Below, one piece after another: positions 727 through 5,219 of a stretch of 5,485 bases of DNA (position 1 is its first letter; the number at the start of each line of letters is the position of its first letter). This stretch comes from Ignavibacteria bacterium (GTDB lineage Bacteria; Bacteroidota; Ignavibacteria; Ignavibacteriales; Ignavibacteriaceae): contig JAOTUT010000131.1 in assembly GCA_029863735.1 (NCBI GenBank), positions 1 through 5,485 of the forward strand. Direction: 5' to 3'. The position numbers and the translations under genes were made by a program. The notes under the pieces are model-generated. The model ran no database searches, had not been told where the DNA came from, and worked only from the letters and a program-made list of their open reading frames with translations.

Positions 727-783
727 CATTTATCCACCTTAGCCCCGCCAGAGGCGGGCAAGTTTAGCGAAGGAGGACCATTT
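727..783 (-). repeat. Short palindromic element interrupting the 3' end of the beta-helix gene
   Basis: The core is a perfect hairpin, cccgcc-aga-ggcggg (744-758), followed in plus orientation by agtttagcgaaggaggacc. The pentamer cattt occurs on both sides (727-731 and 779-783), which may be a target duplication. On the minus strand, bases just beyond the element read ATG TTG ATG AAG TAA (729-715), that is MLMK-stop. This closely matches the usual T9SS C-terminus KMVLMK-stop found in the 375-aa protein. I infer that a roughly 50-bp element inserted at the last codons, replacing …(V)LMK with VLLR and a new stop. The hairpin resembles the CCGCC-NNN-GGCGG element at 4197-4211. The exact ends are uncertain. 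Confidence 0.6.
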
Positions 784-3358
784 TTCTTGTTTCAATATAG
801 TTTCCAGCCTTCAGTTGATAGAAATATACTCCACTAGGTAAAGTGGCTGCATTAAACTCAACTTCATAATTTCCAATCGTCTTCTCTTCATTAATTAGTA
901 TCGTAACTTCACTCCCTAAAACATCAAATACTTTAATTGTAACAAAACTTAATTCTGGAATAAGATAATTAATTGTTGTTACTGGGTTGAATGGGTTTGG
1001 GTAATTCTGTAAAAGTACAAATTCCTTTGGAACATCCAGGGTTAAGTCTTCGGTGAAATTAACCGAGGTATCAATTTCAACAGCTCCAATGTCTACGATT
1101 GCATTAATAATTCTGGCATTTCCAAGAAAATCAGTTGGTGGAAGATCCGGGCGATTCTCACCAACGTCTATAATCTGAGGACTATCGTGCACAGGTAAAA
1201 GGGTAATAATTGAGTAATTATCACCAATGCTGGCCACATCTGTCAACAAACCATAAACGGTAAGTGTGGTTGCGTCATTGTCAATAATCAAGAACTGTCT
1301 TTTTTGATTGAGGTTGGGATTTATTGTGTTCTGAATAAAAGTGTCAGGTACAAAACTCGCACTCATATCAGTTAAAATTGAAGTTCCTGAAACCGGATCG
1401 ACAGTAATGTTGGAAGAAACGCCTTGCGGCTGTGCTGCGATGATTGGATTTGCAGAGAGATTGTTTGCGGCACCCGGAAGTTGGTTAATCTCGCTGAGCG
1501 TCAGGCTGGTTGAACCATTATAGAAAAAAAGCCCATCAGCATTATCAAAGAAATCATTATGGCGTGGAATACTATTGGTTGATGAAACCATCTCATATAT
1601 TCCATAACCCTGGTTTTCGGTGATAAGATTATTAACCACCTGGGCGGGAGGGATGCTTTGTAGAAGCCTTTGCAGCCGGATTCCATCACCGCCATTACCA
1701 TAGATGGTATTGTTTATAATCCGGATACTATCTCCCGTCGGGTGTTCCTGGTAAAAACCGATCAGGCGGTTGGCTGAAATAACATTATTAACAATGAAAG
1801 GCGAATATCCGCTACTAAAACAGGAAATACCATATCCATCATTCCCACTAATCAGATTTCTCGACACAGGTGCTGAAGAACCCCCGCTTCCCCCAATGAT
1901 CCGAATACCGCTGGCATTGCCAATTATGGTATTCGAATCGATAACTGTGTTACCAGGGCTGGTATCATACATCCAAATAGCGGGGCCGGTATTATTTCCA
2001 ATTGTATTGCCCCTTACCGTGGCTTCCGTTAGATCGGCTGGAAACCCACTCGTCAACTGAAGGGTATTTCCCATGTTCTGTTCTATGAGGCAATTGGTTA
2101 CCTGAAGACTAGACTTGGGACCCTGGGTAATGGGATGACTACCGCCACGACCGGCATAGCGAACGATGCAATTGTTTAAATTTACCTCGCCCCTTGGGGA
2201 AGGGCCGTTTACGGCTGTGACACTTATCTGCCCCCAATCTCCCGGCCCGGGGTCGGACGTACTACCAGTATTGCCGCCGGCCGCAGCGGAAGTGTCATTA
2301 TTGGATGTAAACAAGACCCCTTCGGCATTTAATACACCACCGTCCACTGCTACGTTATGCGGGCCATTCTCTGATTTCAGGATAGTGCCGGTGGATATAT
2401 TCAAGCTGTCTCCGGGGTAAATGTAAATGGTTCCTGCATTAATGAATGGCAGTGAATCACTGCCGCTCCAGGTACTGAGCCGGTTCTCGGCAAGAGAAAC
2501 AAAGCCCATTACGATCGCATTAATTTCGTTATTCACACCTACATTTCCGGTCAGGGAACCAACACTCCCTAGAATGTTAACCGGCGCACCGCAAGTAATG
2601 ATACCTGGAATGGGAGGACCGCTGCAAATAGTGTTGAGGAAGCGGTTGTCATTTAGAATCAGATTAGTACTAGCGGAAGCTAAGGCCGTCCCATCCGCGT
2701 CGCTAAATGTGCAATTCGATATCTCGACTACACCGGCACCGAGTTCCATAAATGGCTGTTGAAAACTACCGAGGAAGTTAAACTCGCAGTCAATAAAGCT
2801 GATACTGGTGGTATCTGTTGTGGCAGCACTCCCAATTATTCCCTCCTGGCCAGGAGCGGAATTAGCAAAGTTGAACTCACAGCCCTCAAAGGTGGCGTAG
2901 CCAGGAGTTTGTATGTGAATAAGCCTGGCCAGACCAGTGCTTGATGAAAAATTGGTACTTATGCAGGAAATGTTACCCAGGATTGAAATCTGTTGAATTG
3001 AGGTTATATCTGCCGAAACAATAGTTAAGGTTGCACCTTGTCCAACAATGAAAATTTGGGGTACAGAAACAACACCCGGTCCAATGATGGTGAGAGACCC
3101 GCCCTGGTCAACAATAAGATTATGTTCCAAAATGAAAGGGGGTCCCGGTGGCAACCCTGCACAGATGCCGTAAGCATTTTGGTAGCTAGCATCCCAGGTT
3201 TCCGAGGTTACGTGGTATTCCTGTATCGAATAAGGACATCCCGGTGGTGGGCCCAGGACCCGGTTTACATATACATCAGCCTGTAAATTTTCCAATGGGT
3301 AAAACAGAGCCAAACTTAAACTGAAGAACACAATAGCAGTTGTTAAGTTCTTTTTCAT
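764..3358 (-). CDS. Secreted right-handed parallel beta-helix protein with T9SS type A sorting domain
   Basis: This 864-residue protein is exported. A signal peptide (MKKNLTTAIVFFSLSLALF…, likely cleavage after LQA27) leads into a long pectate-lyase-like beta-helix. The clearest rungs lie at about residues 445-625, where N-x-I-x-x-N-x-G-x-G-I is repeated (RGNTIGNNTG, DSNTIIGNASGIRI, SRNLISGNDGYGIS, INNTIYGNGGDGIRL, VNNLITENQGYGI). GDWGQISV (373-380) is also typical of this class. Residues 656-717 form a separate beta-rich insert. VDIGAVE (755-761) is the motif that commonly closes such helices. Residues 780-864 are the T9SS domain (LLQNYPNPFNPVTT… DVLGSEV… LPSGVYFYQL… KMVLLR). T9SS cargo is released or anchored at the cell surface. 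The fold is known for polysaccharide lyases and adhesins, but no catalytic set is evident, so the substrate is unknown. The start has an AGGAGGA Shine-Dalgarno. The helix part is clearly richer in G+C than the sorting domain and the flanks. Confidence 0.93.
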   Translation of the reverse strand: MKKNLTTAIVFFSLSLALFYPLENLQADVYVNRVLGPPPGCPYSIQEYHVTSETWDASYQNAYGICAGLPPGPPFILEHNLIVDQGGSLTIIGPGVVSVPQIFIVGQGATLTIVSADITSIQQISILGNISCISTNFSSSTGLARLIHIQTPGYATFEGCEFNFANSAPGQEGIIGSAATTDTTSISFIDCEFNFLGSFQQPFMELGAGVVEISNCTFSDADGTALASASTNLILNDNRFLNTICSGPPIPGIITCGAPVNILGSVGSLTGNVGVNNEINAIVMGFVSLAENRLSTWSGSDSLPFINAGTIYIYPGDSLNISTGTILKSENGPHNVAVDGGVLNAEGVLFTSNNDTSAAAGGNTGSTSDPGPGDWGQISVTAVNGPSPRGEVNLNNCIVRYAGRGGSHPITQGPKSSLQVTNCLIEQNMGNTLQLTSGFPADLTEATVRGNTIGNNTGPAIWMYDTSPGNTVIDSNTIIGNASGIRIIGGSGGSSAPVSRNLISGNDGYGISCFSSGYSPFIVNNVISANRLIGFYQEHPTGDSIRIINNTIYGNGGDGIRLQRLLQSIPPAQVVNNLITENQGYGIYEMVSSTNSIPRHNDFFDNADGLFFYNGSTSLTLSEINQLPGAANNLSANPIIAAQPQGVSSNITVDPVSGTSILTDMSASFVPDTFIQNTINPNLNQKRQFLIIDNDATTLTVYGLLTDVASIGDNYSIITLLPVHDSPQIIDVGENRPDLPPTDFLGNARIINAIVDIGAVEIDTSVNFTEDLTLDVPKEFVLLQNYPNPFNPVTTINYLIPELSFVTIKVFDVLGSEVTILINEEKTIGNYEVEFNAATLPSGVYFYQLKAGNYIETRKMVLLR

Positions 3359-3879: not shown

Positions 3880-4050
3880 TTAACGAGTTCTTTTTCCAGC
3901 CCTTATATCTTTACAGGCTCCACATAATTTTTTATTACTCTTTCCCTTTACTTTTCTTCCTCTTTTAATAGCCCTACCTGCCGTACATTCTCCATATATA
4001 TGATATGATTCTCCTGTTTTAGAATGATAAGGTGAAATCTGTCTAGGCAT
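3880..4050 (-). CDS. 56-aa basic Cys/His protein, possible zinc-binding
   Basis: The ORF starts at an ATG with a GGAGGAG Shine-Dalgarno (4056-4062) and ends 32 bp before a strong terminator, so it looks like a real gene. The protein has no signal peptide and is very basic, with many Lys/Arg in the middle (IKRGRKVKGKSNKK). It has H17-x4-C22 and C43-x2-C46 (LCGAC), enough ligands for one zinc site. I infer a small cytoplasmic zinc-ribbon-like protein that might bind nucleic acid. I cannot name the family. It follows the 375-aa gene after 41 bp with no terminator between them, so the two probably share a transcript, although nothing links their functions. Confidence 0.75.
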   Translation of the reverse strand: MPRQISPYHSKTGESYHIYGECTAGRAIKRGRKVKGKSNKKLCGACKDIRAGKRTR

Positions 4051-4091: not shown

Positions 4092-5219
4092 TTATTTCAT
4101 CAACACCATCTTTTTAGTTTCAACGAAAGAACCTACTTGCAATTTATAAAAATAAATTCCACTGGGCAATTCAACGGCATCTCCGCCGGAGGTGGATCCG
4201 CCTTTGGCGGAAAACTTTACCTCATATATTCCTGCTGGTTTATCTCCATTTACAAGTGTTGCTACTTCATTTCCGAGAACATCGTAGACTTTTAGCGTAA
4301 CAAGTTCAGATTGCTTCGTTCCACTCGCAATAACAGATGGAATTGTGTAACGAATTTTTGTTGTTGGGTTGAAGGGGTTAGGATAATTTTGTTCCAAAGT
4401 AAAATTATCGGGCGAAATCACTTCATTCTCAACAGAAACAATTTCATCAGTTAGTTTTGTCTCAAGTCCAGGTATAAAGAAAGGATCGATTTGTAACAAC
4501 GATAAATCAATTGGATTCGATGGAATTATATCCTGAACAACCCAATTATCAGGCGCAACCCAGATAGTATCATTTGTAGTAATTAATTCAACAGGTGGGA
4601 ATGGTGGTGGAAAGAGCCTGTAAGAAACCTTCCATTGAGTAAGAAACTTTTTGCAATTAAAGCTACCAAGAACTGTTTGTATTGATTCATCCTGCAATCT
4701 ATTTCCGATGTATTCAAATAGAAGAGGATAAACACCAACGGTTGTATCTTTTGAAATAAGAGTGTACGGTGTACCTACTACTGAAGCAAAACGGTAAACA
4801 GAATACCAGTCCTGAAGTGAAGCAAAGAATTCAACAAAACTAAAATTCGGATCTAGGCCCAATGTATCTAACTCAAGAAGGAATTCTTCAATCCTGCTGA
4901 TGTTGAAATACTCAAAACCATTTGTACCTTCAGTATTGAAAAATAGAGAATCTAAAAATGGTTGAAACAGAATAGTCTGTAATGGACCTATCTTAGTCGG
5001 CACGATGTTAGCAAGTTTACCATTAAAATTAGCAACAGATGCAAAAGAATCTATTCTGTATAAAGCTTCGGAAGTTACCGGATCATTAAGAGAATCAAGC
5101 GGAGTTACCTTGAACTTCCATTCAAAACTTGTCTGGGAAGGAAAATAGTCACTTGCCTGCTGTGCATATGATATTCCATATAAAAATAGCAGACAGAACA
5201 CGGTAAATATTTTTTTCAT
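4092..5219 (-). CDS. Secreted protein of unknown function with T9SS type A sorting domain
   Basis: This 375-residue protein has a signal peptide (MKKIFTVFCLLFLYGISYA, cleavage before QQ). Residues 21-270 form an uncharacterised beta-rich region starting DYFPSQTSFEWKFKVTPLDS. It is rich in aromatic residues, with one cysteine in the mature chain (C189), and I see no catalytic motif. Residues 272-375 are a T9SS sorting domain (LEQNYPNPFNPTTKIRY… VYDVLGNEVATLV… PSGIYFYKL… KKMVLMK), so it should be surface-delivered cargo. This domain is 18 residues longer than that of the 864-aa protein. The extra length is two inserts: VIASGTKQSE (296-305, net +8) and AKGGSTSGGDAVE (338-350, net +10), each encoded by a short repetitive palindromic sequence. 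The start is supported by the signal peptide and an AGAGGTGGG ribosome site (5222-5230). The 56-aa gene follows after 41 bp. Confidence 0.92.
   Translation of the reverse strand: MKKIFTVFCLLFLYGISYAQQASDYFPSQTSFEWKFKVTPLDSLNDPVTSEALYRIDSFASVANFNGKLANIVPTKIGPLQTILFQPFLDSLFFNTEGTNGFEYFNISRIEEFLLELDTLGLDPNFSFVEFFASLQDWYSVYRFASVVGTPYTLISKDTTVGVYPLLFEYIGNRLQDESIQTVLGSFNCKKFLTQWKVSYRLFPPPFPPVELITTNDTIWVAPDNWVVQDIIPSNPIDLSLLQIDPFFIPGLETKLTDEIVSVENEVISPDNFTLEQNYPNPFNPTTKIRYTIPSVIASGTKQSELVTLKVYDVLGNEVATLVNGDKPAGIYEVKFSAKGGSTSGGDAVELPSGIYFYKLQVGSFVETKKMVLMK
4182..4211 (-). repeat. CCGCC/GGCGG palindromic element inserted in frame in the sorting domain
   Basis: tccgcc occurs at 4182-4187 and 4197-4202 and its complement ggcgga at 4206-4211, giving a hairpin tccgcc-ttt-ggcgga (4197-4211) with the same stem-3-base-loop plan as 744-758. 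It encodes the Gly/Ser-rich stretch KGGSTSGGDA between FSA and LPSG. The sorting domain of the 864-aa protein has only FNAATLPSG at this place, so the insert adds 10 codons and keeps the frame. Confidence 0.7.
4307..4334 (-). repeat. ATTGCGAG…GAAGCAATC-type repeat inserted in frame in the sorting domain
   Basis: On the minus strand the segment starts GTTATTGCGAGTGG and ends AACGAAGCAATCTG. ATTGC and GCAAT form its inverted ends (4327-4331 and 4310-4314). From memory this matches a dispersed short repeat found in intergenic DNA of many environmental bacteria. Here it encodes VIASGTKQSE in a loop between two beta-strands of the sorting domain, adding 8 codons relative to IPELSFVTIK in the 864-aa protein. 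Confidence 0.7.

Follow-up and report, generated by a model that had tools for sequence, protein, structure and literature searches.

In-frame translation of a dispersed palindromic repeat within a predicted T9SS sorting-domain loop of an Ignavibacteria bacterium

A secreted protein of 375 aa that ends in a T9SS type A sorting domain is encoded on the minus strand at 4092..5219 of the window (the whole 5,485-nucleotide stretch of DNA from an Ignavibacteria bacterium that was analysed) and carries repeat DNA in two loops of that domain. We consider it probable that the segment in the first of these loops is a dispersed, GTC-tagged imperfect palindrome of a REP-like kind (hereafter REP1), which occupies, with the frame preserved, an exposed loop of a domain that acts as a tolerant landing place.

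The presence of a repeat of dispersed type in this gene is confirmed. The 23-mer ATTGCGAGTGGAACGAAGCAATC occurs as one exact copy in the window, at 4309-4331 on the minus strand, and when up to three mismatches were allowed 0/200 shuffles gave a match. Together with the preceding codon the feature spans 4308..4334 (minus strand, with the tag here being GTT) and is translated in frame 0 as VIASGTKQS, residues 296-304 of the protein; the reading frame is kept, as an earlier note on this DNA had proposed. The gain of eight codons proposed there is also found by comparison with the sorting domain of an 864-aa protein encoded in the same window (gene 764-3358), where the counterpart of the REP1-bearing loop is a short ELSF loop without the repeat (944..955, minus strand) and IP-ELSF-VTIKV corresponds to IP-SVIASGTKQSEL-VTLKV. 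In a structure prediction of moderate quality (block pLDDT 66 and 77; mean pLDDT 77, with both loops lower), residues 294-303 are predicted to form a loop without strand, flanked by strands at 286-293 and 304-312. The inverted ends that had been described are present, but they amount to just 5 bp (ATTGC/GCAAT). The window copy folds no better than shuffles (z = 0.45), so we claim no RNA function for it. Because the window holds a single copy, the status of REP1 as a dispersed repeat rests on other genomes.

The C-terminus of the 375-aa protein is assigned to the T9SS type A sorting domains by a profile search in which both TIGR04183 (30.8 bits, cut-off 23) and PF18962 (27.3, cut-off 27) match above their cut-offs. 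These matches cover residues 279-372 of a domain delimited as residues 275-375 (4095..4397, minus strand). A protein search lists at least 120 relatives of the 375-aa protein. A profile comparison also matches the domain to chain D of 8glj (E 0.008), and in a Foldseek search it matches mirolase 8qb1 at the latter's sorting domain (E 7.4e-3, rank 15). It differs from the general TIGR04183/PF18962 type, the recipient domain of the repeats, by the two loops enlarged with repeat DNA. In Porphyromonas, the sorting domain is reported to be cleaved off after export (PMC4804311). The second palindromic insert, absent from the earlier note, lies at 4182..4211 in loop 2 and consists of two CCGCC-N3-GGCGG units, one with a mismatch, within the peptide AKGGSTSGG; residues 338-353 form a long strand-free stretch in the predicted structure. 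A third unit of the CCGCC class is intergenic, at 745..757, just beyond the stop codon of the 864-aa gene. Intergenic copies of this unit also occur in genome samples from two relatives (5 copies in G189 and 7 copies in G316).

The host itself is outside the set of 391 genomes that was searched, which represents the class of an Ignavibacterium MAG, and relatives within the Ignavibacteria were used to characterise REP1 and its 23-bp core. The pattern ATTGCGAG-N(2-16)-GAAGCAATC is present in 110/391 genomes, compared with 2/391 for the reversed control, and the possibility that the segment is unique is thereby contradicted in relatives. A more restrictive pattern, written for a single peptide context, hit 1/294 genomes, because it required fixed letters after the repeat. 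In the fetched loci, a GTC tag precedes 46/56 REP1 copies (TGTC 20, AGTC 18, CGTC 5, GGTC 3). The outer stem begins A-T and extends for 5 bp, followed by a mismatch and a variable inner part, which has a varying stem of its own of at least 4 bp in 37% of 46 inner parts versus 3.1% in shuffles. A CCA tail is present in 4/56 copies, and some copies have inverted neighbours.

The expectation that the repeat usually lies between genes is borne out by eight relatives' genomes chosen for having REP1, in which 42/56 strict copies are intergenic according to simple ORF calls (G189 4, G129 6, G010 4, G002 8, G316 1, G135 5, G174 1 and G008 27 copies; the 33 strict copies of G009 and 14/15 of those of G003 fall outside this classification). 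The other 14 comprise four that touch ORF ends, four in ORFs of <120 aa, three in long genes other than those for sorting domains, and three in sorting domains. In three classified relatives REP1 occupies the same loop of the sorting domain in the same frame, and all 27 strict copies of G008 lie outside sorting domains. The three copies in long genes are found in two orthologous-looking reading frames (1006 and 998 aa) and in one of 677 aa, and all are translated as VIASxxKQS. Because these three other long genes use the same frame, it is not special to the sorting-domain loop. The peptide in the 1006- and 998-aa frames (loci L338 and L341, from G129 and G010) is VIASGAKQS.

Loop 1 is a DNA repeat, more than a conserved peptide. 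The window copy matches the REP1 repeat at 26/27 bases, and 6/200,000 random back-translations, made with the codon usage of the relative G189, are as close. In another genome (L270), a reading frame of 231 aa has the identical 23-mer in its sorting domain. Codon use was compared among 58 long-loop sorting domains of 142 examined, with five pairs that have recent flanks set apart. In loops of shared type, the same residue is encoded by the same codon in 931/1043 cases between genomes and in 585/613 within genomes (0.89-0.95); in the flanks beside such loops, the corresponding values are 3138/6147 and 1586/2947 (0.51-0.54). Codon identity falls within two codons on either side of the loop, with no gradient, and some single flank positions are also high. 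The earlier note would have abandoned a mobile repeat had the peptide been conserved with divergent codons; both the base match of the window copy and the codon identity in the loops contradict this.

Several palindrome classes use these loops, not just the one that had been described. In related sorting domains loop 1 contains GTCACCCTGAGC..TCGAAGGGT (REP3), translated VTLSxVEGS, or REP3 in the opposite orientation, translated VTLRQAQSDN, or a GTCATTCCGGG unit whose antisense reading is IPGQARNDN. In three sorting domains of G003, another palindrome is nested in frame inside REP3. Inserts in loop 2 are LPAGRQG (REP2), AKGGSxSGG (the CCGCC unit), HSDEGQNL and HSGNVRNL. REP1, REP3 and REP2 also occur between genes (13 copies for the last in the G189 sample), as does one copy each of opposite-orientation REP3, the IPGQARNDN unit and the HSDEGQNL unit. 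A search of the G189 and G316 samples for intergenic copies of NPSKGG, HSGNVRNL and the CCCCTCC-type inserts (NPLLGGARGG, SPLPGGDGRGG and others) gave none, and these units are consequently not counted as dispersed repeats. In loop 1 the reading of GTC-tagged units starts from GTC, but in loop 2 it is shifted by one base. This loop-dependent reading frame fits, without proving, a place-specific filter on the peptide. Separately, an antisense GTCATTCTGAGC-type palindrome was observed in a loop of another repeated domain (GFEILR..QND) in the G189 ORFs A_492, A_509, A_70 and B_58. Nested palindromes were also seen in intergenic DNA of this genome (G189 B 63787, 69435 and 353413), where a CCTGCC-type unit lies within a GTCA-tagged unit.

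The suggestion that the sorting domain may be a permissive landing site is supported, as more such repeats are found there than in other coding DNA. The sample of G189 comprised 1.2 Mb with 1013 ORFs and 82 sorting domains identified by simple rules, the latter accounting for ~2% of the coding DNA. Relaxed REP1 has three matches in sorting domains (22 kb), three in intergenic DNA (117 kb) and none in other coding DNA (1060 kb) of this sample. A loose GTCATTCCGG pattern gave 25 'other coding' matches in G189, many of them by chance, and a stem test with control tags was used instead. Using 6-bp stems, generic tagged palindromes in G189 number 5 in sorting domains (21.9 kb), 13 in intergenic DNA (116 kb), 0 in cargo bodies (131.5 kb) and 15 in other coding DNA (931 kb), and all eight control tags give 0 in sorting domains. 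Based on 5-bp stems the counts are 6, 13, 0 and 27, respectively; at this length sorting domains also contain 2 matches to one control tag and 1 to another, out of eight tags, versus the 6 real matches.

Strict REP3 has 31 copies, in five of ten genomes. Twelve of the 31 lie in sorting domains (G008 6, G003 3, G189 2, G316 1), 13 are intergenic, two are at ORF ends, three are antisense in other genes and one is in a 97-aa ORF. When only copies in ORFs of at least 120 aa are considered, 12/15 for REP3 and 3/6 for REP1 lie in sorting domains, but common descent makes the enrichment counts less independent: all six REP3 copies in G008 sorting domains belong to a single subtype, and neighbouring paralogues account for three of the five generic matches in G189. 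If each subtype is counted once per genome, REP3 still has ~5 sorting-domain events versus 3 in other genes. Exact word sharing with intergenic DNA sets sorting domains apart weakly. In the G189 sample, shared 13-mers are found in 70/79 sorting domains versus 620/730 C-termini of other genes, 14-mers in 44/79 versus 370/730, 15-mers in 32/79 versus 145/730, 16-mers in 10/79 versus 64/730, and 18-mers in 5/79 versus 10/730.

The presence of the repeat was also followed across orthologues of the 375-aa protein, using a tree of the protein bodies (120/121 rows, with one truncated row dropped). Of these rows, 30 have REP1 in loop 1, 4 have REP3 and 4 have some other repeat-like insert, while the remaining 82 lack all three. 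The tree requires a minimum of 27 changes in loop-1 state and 20 in REP1 presence; with shuffled labels the means are 34.7 and 27.1, and the minima of 100 shuffles are 30 and 23. REP1 presence is thus patchy but partly inherited, because it changes fewer times than in any of the 100 shuffles. Variable presence between orthologues, which had been expected to support insertion, is therefore observed, but as a test of insertion it does not discriminate: whole sorting domains seem to be exchanged between genes, and for this reason patchiness is no proof of insertion at this gene. The Spearman correlation between sorting-domain cores (residues 275-375) and bodies of the 120 orthologues is 0.17. For pairs with 60-70% body identity the mean identity of the cores is 0.70, and for pairs with 85-90% it is 0.71; bins of body identity >90% are biased because the database was clustered at 90%. 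Exchange alone leaves the constancy of the repeat DNA relative to its flanks unexplained; young insertions, copy-by-copy replacement or selection on the hairpin are candidate causes. No otherwise identical pair of sorting domains with and without the repeat was found, and no insertion event was directly seen.

The reading that we favour has two layers, rare palindrome insertion into a tolerant loop and then spread with exchanged domains. Palindromes would be inserted now and then by some activity. Insertions in most genes would be lost, whereas the sorting domain, as a loop-rich address tag, may tolerate them, and frames yielding a tolerated peptide would survive. The exchange of sorting domains between cargo genes would then spread loops already bearing repeats.

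An account that we regard as possible, if rather unlikely, is that palindromes entered these loops a few times in the distant past and are now spread by duplication and exchange of sorting domains, with the loop DNA kept constant through hairpin selection or short-patch replacement. Cores that do not track bodies and the partial inheritance of REP1 on the body tree are both in its favour. So are the six sorting-domain REP3 copies of G008, which have in common the 25-bp REP3 plus CTCGAGT while their flanks differ; this single subtype differs from most intergenic copies of that genome, a sign of spread within sorting domains. However, the loop holds different classes, both orientations and a nested form, the sharp-edged constancy without a gradient does not speak for long conversion tracts, and the window copy alone does not fold better than its shuffles. 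A distinctly more doubtful proposal is that in-gene palindromes are kept as DNA units because they act as recombination handles or hairpin signals for the exchange of sorting domains between cargo genes. If true, repeats and export tags would form a joint system that reshuffles the secretome.

It is improbable that a mobile activity preferentially targets this site of the sorting domain, beyond mere tolerance. Many genes do share the starting point of the insert, the codon junction that follows IP-N/S, but the DNA beside the junction differs from gene to gene and most copies lie elsewhere. Moreover, Y1 transposases are present in 12/12 genomes searched, yet no Y1 gene bracketed by repeat copies was found in 30 loci and 20 regions (partly overlapping, and covering a subset of the Y1 genes). 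The full repeat copies nearest to Y1 genes are ~0.7-1.3 kb away. In the loci and regions examined, no dedicated mobilising enzyme or function for the palindromes was found. The description 'domesticated in frame' is retained for the in-frame translation but not for a gained function.

An assembly artefact is very hard to credit. Both repeats and sorting domains exist in multiple copies, metagenome assemblies make up many of the sources, and most protein matches to the 375-aa protein are metagenomic; but in the classified sorting-domain copies the reading frame stays open across the repeat, the flanking DNA varies from gene to gene, and the single 3.86-Mb contig of G189 contains cases. There is equally little to recommend VIASGTKQS as an ordinary conserved loop peptide with an incidental resemblance to a DNA repeat. 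The peptide does recur in many sorting domains, which gives no frequency since the search query contained it, but the codon comparison contradicts this reading, as do the rare codons and the intergenic copies.

Among known systems, CGTC-tagged REPs are described as imperfect palindromes, short and dispersed, that bear an unpaired tag and lie for the most part between genes, with some in genes, and are reported from Chlorobi and Bacteroidetes among others, with no dedicated transposase known according to that source (PMC3733652). The definition given there comprises a terminal CGTC tag that is unpaired and often takes the form TGTC or CCTC, an 8-9 bp stem starting from A-T, a loop of 4-5, a CCA tail and frequent head-to-head pairs (PMC3733652). 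REP1 is similar in being dispersed and mainly intergenic (42/56 strict copies), but differs in having a 5-bp outer stem and a variable inner part in place of the 8-9 bp stem and loop of 4-5, and a CCA tail that is rare; its tag seems to be reduced to GTC. Because it departs in part from the strict definition, we place REP1 closest to the CGTC-tagged REPs and not as a member. The in-gene copies highlighted for CGTC-tagged REPs are in replication and repair genes (PMC3733652), whereas those described here are in sorting domains.

Comparison with the Rickettsia palindromic elements, made in the earlier note, is apt with regard to in-frame translation inside genes but not to size. Those elements are described as ~150 bp long and translated in frame within unrelated genes (PMC10969869; PMC3733652), whereas the units here are ~23-50 bp and lie in one domain type. 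The nearest kin are instead the CGTC-tagged REPs, which are reported to include Rickettsia RPE-4 and RPE-6 (PMC3733652). There is also a likeness to REP/RAYT (REPIN) systems in that Y1 transposases occur in all 12 genomes and the palindromes may often lie in inverted pairs, but the repeat-bracketed transposase of such systems was not found in the 30 loci and 20 regions.

Palindromes inside genes are already known; their concentration in the loops of one export tag appears to be new. We found no report of palindromic repeats in T9SS sorting domains in the open-access literature searched, a result that leaves absence from print unproven. The sorting domains provide a setting beyond Rickettsia where palindromic repeats become protein, and the place is plausible, being an address tag outside the functional body. 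Because a single genome offers many replicates, statistical comparison of frame, orientation and loop is possible. This makes testable both the movement of REPs without a known transposase and which repeat frames survive in a fold. For annotation, it should be noted that VIASxxKQS and VTLSxVEGS peptides in sorting domains are translated DNA repeats.

Searches of the window gave 0 Rfam matches and 0 tRNA genes. An FG-GAP repeat protein, truncated where the window ends, has its N-terminal part encoded on the minus strand at 3-470, with DNA repeats ~156-165 bp apart. A basic 56-aa reading frame with three cysteines (MPRQISPYHSK..KKLCGACKDIRAGKRTR), under the cut-off of the ORF list, is located at 3880-4050 on the same strand.
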